DNA from: a virus
IMG/VR virus record: IMGVR_UViG_3300043358_000013
Span: 1 to 41,891 of that record
Direction: 5' to 3' (one strand)
DNA length: 41,891 bases
Shown here: one piece after another, positions 24,223 through 37,818 of the stretch
How the letters are laid out: each line of letters starts with the position of its first letter
Position numbering within the stretch: position 1 is the first letter of the stretch
Made by a program: the position numbers and the translations under genes
Notes under the pieces: generated by a model
Database searches by the model: none
Told to the model about the DNA's origin: nothing
The model's input: the letters and a program-made list of their open reading frames with translations, nothing else

Positions 24223-26424
24223 ATGCCGACGCTTGAGGAGCAGATCGCCGCCCTGAACGAACAACTGAACTCGCAGCAGGCCCCTGTGCTGCCGACGCTG
24301 CCGCGCGGAACGCCGGACGACGGCACACGGCCCGGCTTGCTGGGACGGATCGGTGAGGTGCTGGCGGGCGGGCAGTCGCCGACCTACCGCCTGGGAGGTC
24401 GCGAGGCGGACGCGGCGGGCTCGCGGGCGTTGCTGAACTTTGGCCTGAACATGCTGATGGCGTCGGGGCCGGCGCGCGTGAGGCCAGATCTGCTCTCAGC
24501 GGCGGCGACGGGGCTGCAGGGCGCGCAGCAGTCGATGGACCTCGACCAGCGTCGGGCGGCTGCGGTGGCGCAGCAGGATTACCAGCAGCGGATGGACCTG
24601 GCGAAGCTCGGCGTCGAGCAGAACCGCGATCGGATCGAGCGGATGAAGGCGGGGCTGTCGTTGCTGCAGCTGCAGAACCGTCCGGTGATCAATGCCGATG
24701 GCAGTGTCAGCACAGCGGGCGCAACGGGTGGTGGTGGGGCGGGTGGTGGTGCGGGCACAGCGGCTCGGCAGTTTACCGGCGACTTGGAGAAGGACCGCCA
24801 GCTGATCAAAGGATGGGAGTCGGGCGGCGATCCAACAGCGCTGAACTACGTCGCCAAGGCTGACCCGACCGCGCGCGCCAGAGGCGCCACCGCGTCTGGG
24901 CTGTATGGTTTCATCGACAGCACGTGGAAAGAAGGCCTCAAGATGATCGGCGGGGACCCAGCGAAGTATCCCACCGCGGCCTCGGCGCCCCCGGCGGTGC
25001 AGGACGACGTCTTTACCGCGGTCTACAAGGCGCGCGGCACGGCACCGTGGGACCCGTCCAAGTGGGGACAGAACTGGGTCAAGAACGCCGCTGGCGGCTA
25101 CGATCTGGTGAAGACCGGCACGGGAGGCACGGCTACGCCCCCGCCCTACAAGGTGGCCACGACCGGCACGACCCCGCCACCACCGACCCAACCGCCTGCC
25201 GCCACGCCCGCTGTAGCCGGCGCACCAGCAGCACCGCCACCCGCGCCAGGAGCCACCCCACCTGCCGTCACTGCCGCACCCGGGGCCACACCGCCGACAG
25301 TACCTGGAGCTACGCCGCCCGCGCCAGTCGCAGCGCCGCCTACCACCGGACCGTTGGCCGGGTTGCCGAAGATCGACGACTTCGTGGCGCAGAACATGGC
25401 CAAGCCGACGCCTGAGGAAGAGGCGATGTGGCGTACGCCGATGTCGCCCGAGGAAGAGCAGAACCTGCGCGATGGGATGAAGCGCCTGCAGAGCTCAGTG
25501 GATGCGGCGCGGGCTTCCTATAATGCAGCCGGATCGAAAGACTCGGAAGGCGCTTACCACTCTGCCCAGAAAGCCTATGGCGATGCGGAAGCTGAGTTGG
25601 CCAAGCGCCAGCGTGAGGCGCTGAAGGTCGGCGATGACCGCAAGGCCAAGTGGTACGAGGGCGAACGGGGACGCCTTAAGGATCTCTACGGCGAACTCGT
25701 CAAGGGCAACGTGCAACTGCGGCAGTCGCAGGAGACGTCCCTGCTGGAAACCAAGCGCAAGATTCTAGAGCCGATCAATGCCAAGGCCGAGACGGGCGTG
25801 GCCCTGGTGCGGGACGCGCAGACGCTGGAACTGTTCGCGCGGCAAATGGGTCCGGCTAATGCGCTGTGGGGGACGGATTTCGGTAAGCAGCTTACTAACT
25901 GGGTAGCAACTTACGGTGGCCCTGGCTCGCAGGCGGTCAAGGAAGCGGCGGCACGGCAAAGTTGGGACGCGGTCATTGCCGGGCTGTTTGGCGACGTGCG
26001 CGTGCCTGGGTCGGGCGGTCAGTCGAACAAAGAAGGCGAGTGGATGATGAACCAGTGGGGCAGTTCGTCGCAATCACCGCTCGATCGCATGACCCAGGTG
26101 GCGATCATCCGCAAAACAGCGGAGGCACGCATTGCCGATGGCGCCGACGCCAACCGGCTGCACGAGACCAACAAGCCGATCTCTGACATCAACGACATCA
26201 GGGCAAAGCGGCAGGTGTTCGACCGACCGCCGGTCGCGGATGTGCCTAAGTCTCAGGACACGTGGCAGCAGGTCTACCAGTACAACGCGCAGCACCCGAT
26301 GGGTGAGCCCTACGTGACGTGGGCACCGACTGCCGGCGGCAGTGGCCGCATGGTCTGGGCGCGCAACACTGGAGATCCTAATAAACCGCTCGAGATTATG
26401 CCCAACGTGGACGTGTCGCGATGA
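24223..26424 (+). CDS. Internal virion protein with transglycosylase-like domain
   Basis: A 733-aa protein with a GGGGA ribosome site. Residues about 1-150 are helical. A small SLT-type domain lies at about 185-300: IKGWESGGDPTALNYVAKAD with the presumed catalytic Glu at about 199, then GATASGLYGFIDSTWKEGLK. A Pro/Ala/Thr-rich linker (about 310-380, with ATPPAVTAAPGATPP) leads to a long helical C-terminal region. The domain should cleave peptidoglycan locally during DNA injection, as T7 gp16-like proteins do. ATGA overlap with the next gene. This is the only murein-degrading domain I recognise in the window. Confidence 0.82.
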   Translation: MPTLEEQIAALNEQLNSQQAPVLPTLPRGTPDDGTRPGLLGRIGEVLAGGQSPTYRLGGREADAAGSRALLNFGLNMLMASGPARVRPDLLSAAATGLQGAQQSMDLDQRRAAAVAQQDYQQRMDLAKLGVEQNRDRIERMKAGLSLLQLQNRPVINADGSVSTAGATGGGGAGGGAGTAARQFTGDLEKDRQLIKGWESGGDPTALNYVAKADPTARARGATASGLYGFIDSTWKEGLKMIGGDPAKYPTAASAPPAVQDDVFTAVYKARGTAPWDPSKWGQNWVKNAAGGYDLVKTGTGGTATPPPYKVATTGTTPPPPTQPPAATPAVAGAPAAPPPAPGATPPAVTAAPGATPPTVPGATPPAPVAAPPTTGPLAGLPKIDDFVAQNMAKPTPEEEAMWRTPMSPEEEQNLRDGMKRLQSSVDAARASYNAAGSKDSEGAYHSAQKAYGDAEAELAKRQREALKVGDDRKAKWYEGERGRLKDLYGELVKGNVQLRQSQETSLLETKRKILEPINAKAETGVALVRDAQTLELFARQMGPANALWGTDFGKQLTNWVATYGGPGSQAVKEAAARQSWDAVIAGLFGDVRVPGSGGQSNKEGEWMMNQWGSSSQSPLDRMTQVAIIRKTAEARIADGADANRLHETNKPISDINDIRAKRQVFDRPPVADVPKSQDTWQQVYQYNAQHPMGEPYVTWAPTAGGSGRMVWARNTGDPNKPLEIMPNVDVSR

Positions 26425-28235
26425 GCGGCTCGCTCGCCTTCCCGACGCCTATGGTGCCGGACGACATGCCAAATGCACCGCATACCGCAGGGCCGGCCTT
26501 TGCGACGCCGATGATGCCGGATGTGGGTCCGGTCGGCGATCTGGAATTCCGCATGACACCCAGGCCGGTAACGGCGACCTCCTACGACCAACTGCCAACG
26601 AAGGAAGGCGGGGGTCGCGAGCGAGCGGCTGCGGTGAAACGCGTGCGCGACGCGGTGACAGGAGCGTGGACCGGCGCCCACGGGATGACCCCGGAATACC
26701 AGGAGAAGATGAACGCCGCACCGTCTTACGGACCGTTCGGCGGATGGATGAACCGCAACATCATCAACCCGGCACTGAACACAGCGGCGGCAATTCCCGC
26801 GGCGATCGGGGCGGGTGTCGGCGCGACCGCCGAGGAACTGGCGACTGCCGCCGGGGCGCCAGGAGCGGGGCGCGACTTCAATGCCGCTGTTGCTTCCCTC
26901 TCGCCTGTGATGGCGGGAATGGCGCCCGTGCTGCCGCGCACGCTGACGCCCGGCGGGATGCCTATGCGACGACCAAAGGATTACGTGCCGGGAGAGCGCC
27001 CGGTCGATATCGCGCCAGGTGGCCCGCTGAACAAGGAAGCACTGGCCGAGGCGTTGCGACGACGGGCGGAACGCGAGGAGGTCAGATCCGGTGGAATGCC
27101 GACACCGGGACCAGAGGGTCCGGCCTCCACCACTACGCTGCCCTACACGGTGCGCAGTCCGGCGCTGGGGACGCCCGACGTTGAGGTGCGTGCGCCGGTC
27201 GCTGGGCCGTTACCATCGCCGCCCGGCTACGTCCCACCAACCAACGTCACGACCCTTGCATCGGACGCGTTCGATGTGGCGCGTGCGCACTACGCCCTCG
27301 CCGACCACTACGGCGGCAGGGTCTCGGCTAAGGCGAACGACGCGTTCCTGGACAACAAGATCTCCGGCATTCGTACGCAGACACCCGAGGCGCGGCGGTT
27401 CGACCCGACTGACGCGGTGGATGCATCGATCGGTGACCTGAACAACGCGCTGCGCGGGCAAGAGCTATCGTTGCGCGGCACGCAGGAGATCGACAAGAAG
27501 ATCGGCGACCGCATCGAGGTGGCGCTGCGCGCGGGCAAGAAAGACGAGGCGTCCCGGCTGCTCGAGATGCAGCATGCGCTGCGTGATCACGTGGAGAGTG
27601 TGGGCCAGGGTGAGACGGTCGGCGGGCCAGCTGGATTCGCGGCGCTGAAGGACGCCCGCCGGTCGTGGTCGATTGCGGTGCGGATGCAGGACATCGAGCG
27701 CATGATCGAGAAGGCCGAGGGCACGCAGAACCCGCAGGTAACCCTGCGGAACGCGATCGAGCGTTACAGCAAAGACCCCAAGATGACCCGCGGTTGGGCG
27801 AAGGAAGACCTCGACCTGCTGAAGCAGTCGTCGAAGACCAGCGACGGCATGGAAATATTGCGCGGCATGGCCAGCCGCCTGGGACCGATTGGTGGCTACG
27901 CAGTGGGTGGACCGATCGGCGGTCTGGCCGGCCTCGCCACCGAGACCATCATCGCCAACCGGGCGCGCGATGCGCTGGGCGGCATCTACGCCAAGCGCCT
28001 GGAGCGGGTGAAGGAGCAGCTCGGCACGCACCTACCGGGCGCTCCTGGGTCGGAATATGGCCCGCCTGCACCGCCGCCTGGAGTGCTTCCCACTGTTGGG
28101 CTGGGCCTGCCACAGCCCAGCCAGCGTGGCCTATTGGGCAGCATGGTGCTGGGTACCGATCCAGGCGAGCTACGTCGGCAAGCGGAAGAACGGGCGCGAT
28201 TGGAGGCGCAACTGCGGCTGCGCGGTATTCAGTGA
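26421..28235 (+). CDS. Large internal virion protein, helical
   Basis: A 604-aa protein coupled by ATGA to the previous gene. Contains a hydrophobic Ala/Gly-rich segment (NTAAAIPAAIGAGVGATAEE) that may insert in membranes. A long charged helical middle follows (DAFDVARAHYALADHYGGRV, AKANDAFLDNKISGIRTQTP, IDKKIGDRIEVALRAGKKDE), and then a second glycine-rich segment (YAVGGPIGGLAGLATETIIA). This composition fits an ejection protein forming part of the trans-envelope channel. No enzyme motif seen. Ends seven bases into the convergent small gene. Confidence 0.7.
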   Translation: MSGSLAFPTPMVPDDMPNAPHTAGPAFATPMMPDVGPVGDLEFRMTPRPVTATSYDQLPTKEGGGRERAAAVKRVRDAVTGAWTGAHGMTPEYQEKMNAAPSYGPFGGWMNRNIINPALNTAAAIPAAIGAGVGATAEELATAAGAPGAGRDFNAAVASLSPVMAGMAPVLPRTLTPGGMPMRRPKDYVPGERPVDIAPGGPLNKEALAEALRRRAEREEVRSGGMPTPGPEGPASTTTLPYTVRSPALGTPDVEVRAPVAGPLPSPPGYVPPTNVTTLASDAFDVARAHYALADHYGGRVSAKANDAFLDNKISGIRTQTPEARRFDPTDAVDASIGDLNNALRGQELSLRGTQEIDKKIGDRIEVALRAGKKDEASRLLEMQHALRDHVESVGQGETVGGPAGFAALKDARRSWSIAVRMQDIERMIEKAEGTQNPQVTLRNAIERYSKDPKMTRGWAKEDLDLLKQSSKTSDGMEILRGMASRLGPIGGYAVGGPIGGLAGLATETIIANRARDALGGIYAKRLERVKEQLGTHLPGAPGSEYGPPAPPPGVLPTVGLGLPQPSQRGLLGSMVLGTDPGELRRQAEERARLEAQLRLRGIQ

Positions 28236-30793: not shown

Positions 30794-30867
30794 CAAAATC
30801 TCCTTGCAGGTCGGCTTGGCAGAGCTTAACTAGGTAAAGTCTTATGCGAATGCAAGGAGAAAACAAC
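30794..30867. promoter_or_regulatory. Divergent control region with dyad ribosome sites
   Basis: TCTCCTTGCA (30799-30808) and TGCAAGGAGA (30851-30860) are perfect inverted copies; each contains the ribosome site of one of the two divergent genes. Between them a rightward TTGGCA (-35-like) is 18 bases from TCTTAT (-10-like). This is a natural place for the regulator encoded at 30868 to control both units (inference). Confidence 0.55.
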
Positions 30868-31104
30868 GTGCGATATGTTTACAAGAGCCCGCGTATGGAG
30901 CGCGAGCGGGACGCGGTGCTAGGGCCTCTGCTGACCCAGCGCGGCATGGTCACGTTCTTGGCGCGTGAATTGGGCATCTCCAAAGCCGCGGTGGCGCAGT
31001 GGTACAGCATCCCGGACCAGCATATTGCGGCGATCAGCAAGCTATTGGACATCCCGCAGTATCAACTGCGCCAGCAGCCGCGCCGTCCGAAGGTGGCGGC
31101 GTGA
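30868..31104 (+). CDS. Cro/YdaS-like helix-turn-helix regulator
   Basis: A 78-aa basic protein. GTG 30868 is chosen because AAGGAG precedes it; the upstream ATG 30844 lacks one. The helix-turn-helix MVTFLARELGISKAAVAQWY, SIPDQHIAAISKLLDIPQYQ is of the Cro/YdaS kind. It should bind operators near its own promoter and the divergent Gp157/ERF unit. No partner repressor of CI type is visible, and no integrase, so a role in an early-late switch is more likely than classic lysogeny. Confidence 0.78.
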   Translation: MRYVYKSPRMERERDAVLGPLLTQRGMVTFLARELGISKAAVAQWYSIPDQHIAAISKLLDIPQYQLRQQPRRPKVAA

Positions 31105-31511: not shown

Positions 31512-31759
31512 CCCGCCGACGGCTAATGCAGCGGCTGGATCGTGAGGACATCCTCGCCCTGGCGGTCTGCGAAACGCTGATGGAGCAGCATGCGAGCCTC
31601 GACGAGACGCTGCGCGTGGCGGGCACGCTGATCGGTTGGACGCTGCATCAGACACACGACACGCTCGACGCCAAGCTGGAAACGCTGACCAGTGTCGCAC
31701 GCGACATCCGCCACCTGTTGCTGAAGAACCATGGGGCACGCCGTGAGCGGGAAGACTGA
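31508..31759 (+). CDS. Small helical hypothetical protein
   Basis: An 83-aa protein; ATG 31508 overlaps the VRR-NUC stop. Helical and acidic/basic mixed: RLDREDILALAVCETLMEQH, TLRVAGTLIGWTLHQTHDTL, LTSVARDIRHLLLKNH. No family recognised. Member of the early rightward unit. Confidence 0.65.
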   Translation: MTRRRLMQRLDREDILALAVCETLMEQHASLDETLRVAGTLIGWTLHQTHDTLDAKLETLTSVARDIRHLLLKNHGARRERED

Positions 31760-31982
31760 GGACGAGCACGACCCGGCGACGATCTGGACCGGTTGGATCA
31801 AGCGGGGCGAGTTGCCTGGCACGATCATTGGCCAATTGGTCGACCATTGGGGCTGGGTCGTCACCCTTGCTGGTGCGGTGGACCCGGAGGGTGGCGGCTA
31901 CCAACTTCTGGGGCGTCTCGGACCAGTGCCTGAGCCGCTGCGGGTCGAGGCGATCGACGACGGACCAGACAAAGACGGGTGA
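31743..31982 (+). CDS. Small hypothetical protein before pentamer tract
   Basis: A 79-aa protein if GTG 31743 is used (ATG 31731 would add four residues). Contains PATIWTGWIKRGELPGTIIG, QLVDHWGWVVTLAGAVDPEG and ends VEAIDDGPDKDG. It overlaps the previous gene in a different frame. No family recognised. The GCCNN tract begins about 13 bases after its stop. Confidence 0.55.
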   Translation: MSGKTEDEHDPATIWTGWIKRGELPGTIIGQLVDHWGWVVTLAGAVDPEGGGYQLLGRLGPVPEPLRVEAIDDGPDKDG

Positions 31983-31994
31983 GGCCGAGGCCCC

Positions 31995-32728
31995 ACCCGT
32001 CCAAGCCTGCCGTGCCCCGCCCCGCCGTGCCTTGCCCCGCCCAGCCTGACCACGCCTGCCGGGCCTTGCCGCGCCTCGTCCCGCCGGGCCCTGCCGTGCC
32101 TGACCGCGCCTGCCGCGTCTTGCCGAGCCGTGCCTGGCCCGTCCGAGCCAAGCCGTGCCTGCCCCGCCTTACCGGGCCCTGCCCCGACCCGCCGCGTCCA
32201 GCCATGCCGTGCCTGCCATGCCGAGCCGTGCCGCGACGGGACTTGCCGGGTCCTTCCAAGCCCTGCCCAGCCTGCCAAGCCACGCCGGGCCAAGCCTGCC
32301 ATGCCACGTCTTGCCGTGCCCCGCCGAGACCCGCCTCGCCTGTCCCCGCCTCGCCTGCCCCGCCGCGCCGCGCCACTCCGCGCCCTGCCCTGCCAAGCCC
32401 GACCGGGCCTGACCGGGCCTGCCCTGCCAAGCCACGCCCCGCCGCGTCCAGCCATGACGAGCCAAGCCGGGCCTGCCAAGCCACGCCCCGCCGCGTCCAG
32501 CCATGACGAGCCAAGCCTGCCCTGCCCTGCCTAGCCCGTCCGCGCCGCGCCGAGCCGGGACGAGCCTGCCCCGCCATGCCTTGCCGCGCCGAGCCCAGCC
32601 GTGCCGGGCCAAGCCGGGCCTGCCAAGCCAGGACCTTCCATGCCTTGCCTTGCCTAGCCAAGCCTGCCCAGCCTTGCCGTGCCAGTCCCTGGCAGGCCGT
32701 GCCGAGCCCGGCCGTGCCGAGCCTGCCA
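31995..32728. repeat. Degenerate GCCNN pentanucleotide tract between convergent genes
   Basis: About 730 bases made almost wholly of five-base units of the form GCCNN (for example GCCGT, GCCTT, GCCAA, GCCTG), with occasional four-base steps at CCTGCC that shift the phase. The variable pair includes many of the sixteen dinucleotides. A 45-base block at 32424-32468 is repeated exactly at 32473-32517 (49-base offset). Three frames on each strand stay open for long stretches simply because GCCNN rarely makes a stop; I treat none as a gene. The tract fills the space between the convergent genes ending at 31982 and 32731. Confidence 0.9.
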
Positions 32729-32730
32729 TG

Positions 32731-33174
32731 TCACCGCTTGCGCGGTGTCTTCCCACCCTTGGGTGGTCCCTTTCTGGCGGCATCCGCCGCCGCCCAAACC
32801 CGATCAAGCTCCGTCAAAGCCTGATAGCGCTCTTGCATCCTTTCCAACTCACGCAGCGCATCTTGCAGCAGCACCGTGCGCAAATCAGGCGTGTTCATCA
32901 CACTGTTGATGTGCCGATATCCACCACCACCAACTCGGTCGATGCTGAGCGACACGTATTGCCGCGTATGGTGGACCGGCTCGACAAACACCTGGATCAA
33001 CTGCCGCACCTGCTGGATGCGGTATTGCTCGCCGGCAATTGCATCGTCCCACTCCAACTCGGCATGCAACGCCGAACTGGGATGCGCGCGCGCCCACTCC
33101 ACCGCAGCCTTCGGCTGGATCAGACCGCCGCGCTCCAGCCGCAGCAGTTCGCTGGCAACATTCTCCCGGTTCAT
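32731..33174 (-). CDS. Hypothetical leftward protein
   Basis: A 147-aa protein from ATG 33174, coupled by ATGA to its upstream neighbour. Sequence includes VASELLRLERGGLIQPKAAV, EWARAHPSSALHAELEWDDA and LQDALRELERMQERYQALTE, with a lysine/arginine-rich end (KGPPKGGKTPRKR). Helical with a short central beta region (QVFVEPVHHTRQYVSLSIDR). I do not recognise a family. Encoded with the next gene as a unit, perhaps DNA metabolism by neighbourhood. Its stop touches the pentamer tract. Confidence 0.72.
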   Translation of the reverse strand: MNRENVASELLRLERGGLIQPKAAVEWARAHPSSALHAELEWDDAIAGEQYRIQQVRQLIQVFVEPVHHTRQYVSLSIDRVGGGGYRHINSVMNTPDLRTVLLQDALRELERMQERYQALTELDRVWAAADAARKGPPKGGKTPRKR

Positions 33175-33890
33175 GTGCCCTGGATCTCCATTAGTTCGTC
33201 GGTCACCACCTCGAAACGACCAAAACCCAGGCCGTTGGAGTTGGGGGAGTTGGGCCGGCCCTCGCCGATGCCGACCTGCTTGCCGGCGCGGGCCATCAAA
33301 TTGAGCAAATCGATTGCCGAGAACTGATCGACGTCCCATTCGATCGACACCTGGGCCGACCACTCGCGCCACATCGGGCGCCAGCGGATGTCGGCAACGC
33401 CGCTGTCATTTCGAACTGGTGCTTTGTAGGGCTGCGGCGTGCCGATGATCTTCACCAGTTGGCTGCCGTCCTCGGCGTCGGTGCCGTCGGCGATGACGAA
33501 CACCGACAGTTTTGCGTGAGTCATTCGAAAGCCGACCAGTCGGCAGGCGTCGATGATGGCGTTGCGAAAGCTGGGTGCCGGGATGCCGCACCAGCCCTCG
33601 GTGGAGATGTGCATTGCATCGCGATACAGCTGCTCGAAATCCTTTGGCTGGCGCACCTTGCGACCGCGGGACTGCTGCCCGGCGCGCTGGGTGGCCTCCA
33701 TGATGCGTTGCTGTTTGGCACTGAATGCATGTTGGACATAAGGGCTGATGCCCCGGATGTTGAACCGCGCCACGCCGAGGTTTGGTGGCGTGATCTTCAG
33801 CGCCGGCACTGCGGGTGCGGCGTCGTTCGCCGGGGCGTCCTGGGTGCTAGCCTGTTTGCGGACAGGTGCGATACGCTTCAATGCAGCCAT
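33171..33890 (-). CDS. Conserved-looking phage protein of replication/recombination region
   Basis: A 239-aa protein from ATG 33890. The first 35 residues are Ala/Pro-rich and basic. The body includes FNIRGISPYVQHAFSAKQQR, MHISTEGWCGIPAPSFRNAI, DACRLVGFRMTHAKLSVFVI and ends LMARAGKQVGIGEGRPNSPN, GLGFGRFEV. The GIGEGRP..GxGxGRFEV ending is shared by hypothetical proteins of many phages. No function known to me; the mixed beta fold and glycine-rich end suggest nucleic-acid binding, which is inference. First gene of a leftward pair, divergent from 34059. Confidence 0.75.
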   Translation of the reverse strand: MAALKRIAPVRKQASTQDAPANDAAPAVPALKITPPNLGVARFNIRGISPYVQHAFSAKQQRIMEATQRAGQQSRGRKVRQPKDFEQLYRDAMHISTEGWCGIPAPSFRNAIIDACRLVGFRMTHAKLSVFVIADGTDAEDGSQLVKIIGTPQPYKAPVRNDSGVADIRWRPMWREWSAQVSIEWDVDQFSAIDLLNLMARAGKQVGIGEGRPNSPNSNGLGFGRFEVVTDELMEIQGT

Positions 33891-33979
33891 GGTGTTTGCT
33901 CCAATCAGACACTGTGGTCAGGGTCGCGGCAGCGGTCGGAAGCTGCTGTCGCGCCCCGCATCCTAATATTTCTCACTGA

Positions 33980-37290: not shown

Positions 37291-37695
37291 GTGCTGATGG
37301 GCGATCTAGTCCCGACTGCTAGCAAATCTGTCGAGCATCTGTGGAAGCCTGGGCAATCCGGCAACCCAAAGGGCCGACCTCGCACGCCGCACGATCTGCC
37401 GGCAATGTGCCGCGAGCACACGCCAGAGGCCGTGGCAAAGCTGGTGGAGATCATGCGCTCTGACGACCATGGCAAGGCGCTGAACGCCATCCAGCAGTTG
37501 CTCGATCGTGGTTGGGGTAGACCTGTGACCCCGATCGTGGACGAGACCGAGGGGACCAGCTTGACGTTGTTGCATTTGATTGCGGCGCGGCGTGTTGCCG
37601 AAACGTTGCAAGCCGTGGCGGAGGGGAAAACCGAGAACGAATCGGGCGACTCCTCCAAGCCTGTGGTTGATTATAGTGTTCCTGCCCTGGAATAG
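37291..37695 (+). CDS. DUF5681-like protein, possible packaging-associated
   Basis: A 134-aa protein from GTG 37291 (ATG 37297 possible). The N-terminal motif WKPGQSGNPKGRPRTPHDLP is the DUF5681 signature, found in phage and prophage proteins near terminase genes. Then a helical body (EAVAKLVEIMRSDDHGKALN, AIQQLLDRGWGRPVTPI) and an acidic tail. A small-terminase or DNA-binding role is possible by analogy only. It is separated from terL by about 3.6 kb in the circular map. Confidence 0.7.
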   Translation: MLMGDLVPTASKSVEHLWKPGQSGNPKGRPRTPHDLPAMCREHTPEAVAKLVEIMRSDDHGKALNAIQQLLDRGWGRPVTPIVDETEGTSLTLLHLIAARRVAETLQAVAEGKTENESGDSSKPVVDYSVPALE

Positions 37696-37726
37696 TCGGT
37701 AGAACAAACTCGGCGTGGCATGGCGG

Positions 37727-37786
37727 GGTCGGTCCCGGACAGGCCCGGCCTGGCTCGTCAAGGCAGGGCCGGCATGACATGGCATA
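37727..37786. repeat. Short GGCNN pentamer tract (reverse of the large tract)
   Basis: About 60 bases of five-base units GGCNN and close variants (GGCAT, GGCCC, GGCCT, GGCTC, GGCAG). This is the GCCNN pattern of 31995-32728 read on the other strand. Like the large tract it lies between convergent genes (37695 and 37819). Confidence 0.7.
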
Positions 37787-37810
37787 GGGGCGGCAACCTG
37801 CCGCCGCCCC
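37787..37810. terminator. Hairpin between convergent genes
   Basis: GGGGCGGCA pairs with TGCCGCCGCCCC around ACC with one bulged base. It sits next to the short pentamer tract, just before the stop of the leftward gene at 37819. Likely a shared transcription barrier for both directions; no clear U-tract. Confidence 0.55.
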
Positions 37811-37818
37811 AGCCGCGC

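Follow-up and report, generated by a model that had tools for sequence, protein, structure and literature searches.

A punctuated GGY/NN repeat array beside a RAMP-family gene in a tailed phage: a probable guide store of a VIPR system

Results

The array locus and its neighbouring genes

The window, that is, the whole 41,891-nucleotide stretch of DNA analysed here (IMG/VR record IMGVR_UViG_3300043358_000013), belongs to a tailed phage, as judged from the terminase, portal, scaffold and major head protein in the genome. Within it, a degenerate repeat array is flanked by convergent genes, a small plus-strand ORF on one side and a minus-strand vap/vipr operon (32731-33890) on the other, and a further single element of the same kind lies about 5 kb away. 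The features are as follows.

31731-31982, plus strand: small ORF converging on the array
31973-32002, minus strand: strong terminator-like hairpin closing the array at its 3' side, with UUUGUCU after it (z = -6.4)
31984-32732, minus strand: vrRNA array, its limits set by parsing
32733-32750, minus strand: hairpin immediately preceding the first module, at the end of the vap gene (z = -3.8)
32731-33174, minus strand: candidate vap gene (phrog_15946, 147 aa), between vipr and the array, its start overlapping the vipr stop
33171-33890, minus strand: vipr (phrog_4652), encoding a 239-aa RAMP (Cas7/Csm3-like) protein, assigned by profile, fold and co-occurrence
37291-37695, plus strand: DUF5681 gene, just upstream of the solitary vrRNA, whose guide has the rival orthologues of this gene as its target
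37712-37812, plus strand: solitary vrRNA, an 11-NN guide with a 3' tail

The lag-5 identity of the array is 0.605, compared with 0.264±0.019 (maximum 0.313) in all other 740-base windows of the stretch and 0.345±0.021 in first-order Markov resamples; by this check, which the original prediction had proposed, the array is real. The array parses best on the minus strand, into a three-base motif plus spacer (GGC/NN, appearing as GCCNN on the plus strand). The 156 motif slots comprise 122 GGC and 8 GGT, the remainder being mostly one-base variants; the two-base spacers (n = 136) use all 16 dinucleotides, and every one of the 15 one-base spacers is an A. The original prediction had placed about 145 GCCNN units in a convergent intergenic region, with GCC kept and NN variable, and in all these respects it was right. 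The units are not strictly pentameric as it had supposed, since GGC-A-GGC shifts the register by one base every ~9-13 units.

No Rfam family was returned for the array, and a search of the literature on pentamer repeats found nothing; the name VIPR was reached only via the PDB match given below. Several short GC-rich coding stretches that the array finder also called in the window were treated as false positives, with the exception of that at 37712. The large protein encoded by the ORF at 26421-28232 had no match among phage records.

The profile of the protein family encoded at 33171-33890 matches PDB entry 36pp_D, 'SUSP1 Vipr', with E=3.5e-42, and the lone protein does so with E=2e-4, the sequence similarity of this Vipr to that of SUSP1 being low. 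Its AF2 model has a pLDDT of 89, and the top Foldseek matches of the model are all type III/VII CRISPR RAMP backbone subunits (Csm3/Cas7-type); Pfam and NCBIfam searches with the protein gave no credible family. The phrog_15946 gene co-occurs with vipr and, from its position and this co-occurrence, is likely vap; a structure search with its product found no significant fold match, the best being weakly winged-helix-like (E 0.22). Antisense to the start region of vipr, positions 33885-33960 (plus strand) give a weak Rfam match to SymR antitoxin RNA (E 1.7e-4), under the gathering score.

Guide modules and their punctuation

VIPR (Viral Interference Programmable Repeat) was described in a bioRxiv preprint of 2026 (PMC13142463). 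As described there, Vipr and vrRNAs built of GGY/NN repeats read double-stranded DNA through the NN pairs, one base of the target being skipped each time, and act against rival phages; guides have 9-16 tandem repeats, and seven VIPR types and accessory genes vap1-6 are distinguished (PMC13142463). In the minus-strand parse, the present array resolves into about 14 guide modules, mostly of 9-13 GGY/NN units and thus within that range, with one short module of 5 units. Their borders are the one-base A spacers (GGC-A-GGC), and their 5' ends lie at the following positions.

M1-M7, minus strand: 32723, 32664, 32620, 32566, 32517, 32473, 32419
M8-M14, minus strand: 32355, 32296, 32272, 32213, 32159, 32110, 32056

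Because A accounts for 183 of the 201 one-base spacers in arrays of the same Vipr clade, GGC-A-GGC looks like a genuine punctuation mark of the array. Modules M5 and M6 are duplicated, the series TT TC AT TG GC GG GT TT occurring twice.

Association of arrays with Vipr in other genomes

The DNA pattern alone finds at least 120 viral stretches with such arrays, and most of these are accompanied by a homologue of the phrog_4652 ORF. Among the pattern matches listed, 60 loci with at least 20 units form a long-array set; 48 of these contain a Vipr ORF, in every case within 1 kb of the array and at a median gap of 20 bp, and GGY lies on the vipr coding strand in 47 of the 48. In several of the 12 long-array loci without Vipr, the array is terminal on its contig. 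Conversely, a protein search of bacterial genome contigs gave 24 loci, the majority of which (about 18 clearly) show GGY chains on the vipr strand, and none on the opposite one. The pair of array and Vipr is also present in Mycobacterium phages Saal (L002) and Brocalys (L004) and in Gordonia phage Pipp (L003).

Targets of the array guides

In an all-against-all test of the decoded modules, exact matches of eight NN pairs were in excess only with a skip of one base (13, against 5-7 when shuffled). Skips of 0 and 2 gave no excess, and with skips of 3 and 4 the counts equalled those of the shuffles and came partly from unmasked repeats. Blind scans of IMG/VR used eight-NN patterns from four modules (M5, M7, M8 and M10). 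The sites concerned, together with M1 and a site matched by a guide from the array of the sister phage, are listed here.

32214-32272, minus strand: M10, matching an AGFGLNLQ-coding motif in phage SNF2/helicase genes, best 20/22
32356-32419, minus strand: M7 (CC CA CC CG TT AG AG GC GT GC GC GG), matching DUF5681 genes in other phages at up to 22/24
32420-32517, minus strand: M5/M6, matching a KTPAQIEK-coding site in DUF2800 PD-(D/E)XK nuclease genes
32665-32723, minus strand: M1, with the vap gene of the sister as its best library match, 18/22, within the shuffle range
33453-33482, minus strand: site in vipr matched by a sister array guide at 19/20 (16/20 in the sister's own vipr)

The M10 pattern gave 73 matches, 64 of them in one wobble phase, with AGFGLNLQ encoded, and the M5 pattern gave 53, with 47 in one wobble phase and KTPAQ[IM]EK encoded; both the helicase and the DUF2800 matches fall on conserved protein motifs. 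Among the M5-matched proteins, the three assigned in Pfam are DUF2800 nucleases, and one other has no Pfam match. M7 gave 14 matches, the majority in genes of the DUF5681 family that encode an ALLNRGWG motif. The IMG/VR scan with M8 gave no signal, its matches being scattered over frames and sharing no common gene. A target phage matching every NN of the modules that match DUF2800 and helicase genes was not found, and for about half of the modules (M2, M3, M4, M8 and M11-M14) the searched sequences contained no convincing target. The resemblance of M1 to a rival vap gene suggests that it may be an anti-VIPR guide. When the main-array guides were compared with the phage's own genome, all had at least 4 mismatches, and the solitary guide has 5.

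A weak match of a sister guide is found at 30946-30975, in a Cro/YdaS-like regulator gene (30844-31104), at 16/20, and at 17/20 in the genome that carries the guide. Further exact nine-NN guide matches occur between related phages, from a guide of L129 to L128 near 2910 and from a guide of L034 to L029 near 4964.

Guide turnover between sister phages

The Vipr of the sister phage (L125) is 95-96% identical to the present one, and its array occupies the same place with modules that are almost wholly different, only M3 being common to both; this module had no match in IMG/VR. A second relative, L126, is near-identical to this phage over most of its length and lacks one module and one duplicate. 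The L125 and L126 contigs in IMG/VR begin at or within the array, which suggests that assemblies break there.

The solitary vrRNA and the DUF5681 gene

The solitary vrRNA bears the guide GT AT GG CG CC CA CC CT TC AA AG and a 3' tail, a GGCATGACATGGCAYA-hairpin, which is conserved in three phages. It thereby has the invariable 3' tail of VIPR guides, whereas the main array has a single terminator-like hairpin at its end only. The guide matches DUF5681 at 20/22 in the sister and in three other phages, and at 17/22 in the phage itself. Reciprocally, the solitary guide of the sister matches DUF5681 of this phage at 21/22 and that of the sister itself at 20/22.

37497-37529, minus strand: site in DUF5681 matched by the sister's solitary guide at 21/22 (17/22 by the phage's own guide)

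Since the guide directly follows the gene to whose orthologues it corresponds, and in the sister only 2 of 22 positions mismatch between the guide and its own DUF5681, the solitary vrRNA could instead be an autoregulator of the adjacent gene and not a weapon against relatives, with the array still belonging to VIPR. We consider such a role improbable. This phage's own DUF5681 is mismatched at 5 of 22 positions by its guide, compared with only 2 in four relatives, and at two sites that differ between the sister DUF5681 genes (AC/AT and CT/CG) each guide bears the allele of the other phage. Furthermore, the solitary guide of a third phage, which is a different one and is directed at another site of the same gene, matches three other phages at 24/26 and has no match in its own genome at up to 5 mismatches; the skipped bases vary among its three targets.

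Discussion

In our interpretation, the array stores the guides of a VIPR system, in which Vipr-bound modules silence genes of rival phages (probability about 0.93). As in the VIPR systems of SUSP1 and a P. fulva prophage (PMC13142463), the locus is phage-encoded and has a Vipr RAMP homologue adjacent to GGY/NN guides on the same strand, a small candidate accessory gene nearby, a one-nucleotide skip at wobble positions and matches in rival phages, some of them in other VIPR genes. It differs in arrangement from Escherichia phage SUSP1, which has four separate vrRNAs of ~100 nt; here there is a 0.75-kb uninterrupted, punctuated array and a tailed vrRNA ~5 kb away. The punctuated array is probably what the preprint terms 'staggered arrays with overlapping vrRNAs' (PMC13142463).

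By analogy with the published SUSP1 and P. fulva work, the array would be transcribed, form ribonucleoprotein with Vipr and direct silencing. A minus-strand transcript, from the strand of vipr and vap, would carry the GGY-NN units, run through to the terminator-like hairpin at 31973-32002 and be processed into guides at the A marks or close to them, giving ~14 guides delimited by GGC-A-GGC, to which the tailed vrRNA at 37.7 kb would add one. Vipr is expected to coat the guide RNA, each five-base unit being occupied by roughly one protomer that holds GGY and exposes NN; GGC would then set the register between RNA and protein, and the NN pairs, as the sole bases read in each five-base unit, would form the target code. 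The pairs of a module would read the DNA target as NNxNNx..., where x is the skipped base and falls on the wobble position of codons, and target binding would silence the gene in a competing phage. Because the guides differ from the carrier's own alleles, the phage would spare itself and strike relatives and other rivals.

For this phage group, we put about even odds on a more specific proposal, in which VIPR is an allele-level self/non-self weapon among close relatives. The solitary vrRNA would carry the rival's version of DUF5681, other guides would be directed against the rival's vipr and perhaps its vap and regulator, each guide would evolve with the carrier's own allele as a matched pair, and A would be general guide-end punctuation.

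The original prediction had instead offered a structured barrier between transcripts, a protein-binding carpet, a packaging-stall element or a decoy, in place of all of which we favor the guide-RNA array. A nucleoprotein carpet, barrier or stall element would suit an intergenic position between convergent genes and a terminator-like hairpin at one end, but leaves unexplained the RAMP partner gene, the punctuation, the turnover of modules between sisters and the target matches, and is very unlikely. Hardly credible is a repeat-derived coding region for A-x-P-x-x peptides, open in several frames: long ORFs do span the array because GGC/NN repeats rarely contain stop codons, but the A spacers shift the frame every ~9-13 units, the sister's modules at the same place are almost entirely different, no protein family matches, and the arrays of other phages lie between or across genes called only 'hypothetical', in keeping with the earlier view that the region is non-coding. 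Neutral slippage or a drifting satellite without function deserves equally little credence, since GGC is conserved in very diverse phages and every dinucleotide occurs at NN, the adjacency and strand of vipr are nearly invariant and decoded modules match rival genes in one codon phase, even though duplication does occur (M5/M6); selection, as had been suggested, and not slippage lies behind the five-base period, with GGC kept while NN carries the target code.

Among known systems, Class 1 CRISPR-Cas (the type III Csm3/Cas7 backbone) shares with this VIPR locus the RAMP fold, guide turnover between relatives and, presumably, RNA guidance, but differs in using contiguous pairing instead of NN pairs; here, moreover, there is a single small RAMP protein and the system is phage-borne. 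A CRISPR-Cas array itself was rejected, as identical direct repeats with unique spacers are not found. The short tandemly repeated repetitive sequences (STRRs) of cyanobacteria are near-identical heptamers, and we know of no partner protein for them. They resemble the present array as short-period intergenic repeats in microbial genomes, but its period is five and its hypervariable positions carry information.

The original prediction knew of no described element of this form; VIPR, however, was described in 2026 (PMC13142463), and the vipr and vap genes, the A punctuation and the solitary vrRNA had been overlooked. To the known system, our analysis adds the punctuation, the turnover of guides between sisters, the reciprocal non-self guides and a list of targets. 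The VIPR code is also tested independently here, in a phage group whose relationship to those of the preprint is only distant, and the one-nucleotide-skip wobble rule holds. Natural guides aim at a sister phage's version of the same gene and spare the self allele, are replaced between close relatives and match codons of conserved protein motifs, and guide acquisition and the avoidance of self-targeting thus become testable questions.

Such arrays are common, yet in many phages, well-studied mycobacteriophages among them, they are unannotated or labelled 'hypothetical protein'. In Saal, Brocalys and Pipp, the arrays and Vipr genes are annotated as 'hypothetical protein' and lie in or beside the immunity region, and in Saal and Brocalys the VIPR locus is near antirepressor genes. 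At positions 1950-3540 of L067, a VIPR locus has six arrays with a conserved element of ~40 bases (TCCATCCCTTTACGCCGGATGCTGCTGCTCCCGT) between them, apparently vrRNAs each with its own tail. Finally, the record GU169904.1, 'Staphylococcus phage SA1', may be mislabelled or chimeric, because its Vipr gene (91697-92263) is 98.9% identical to that of coliphage SUSP1.
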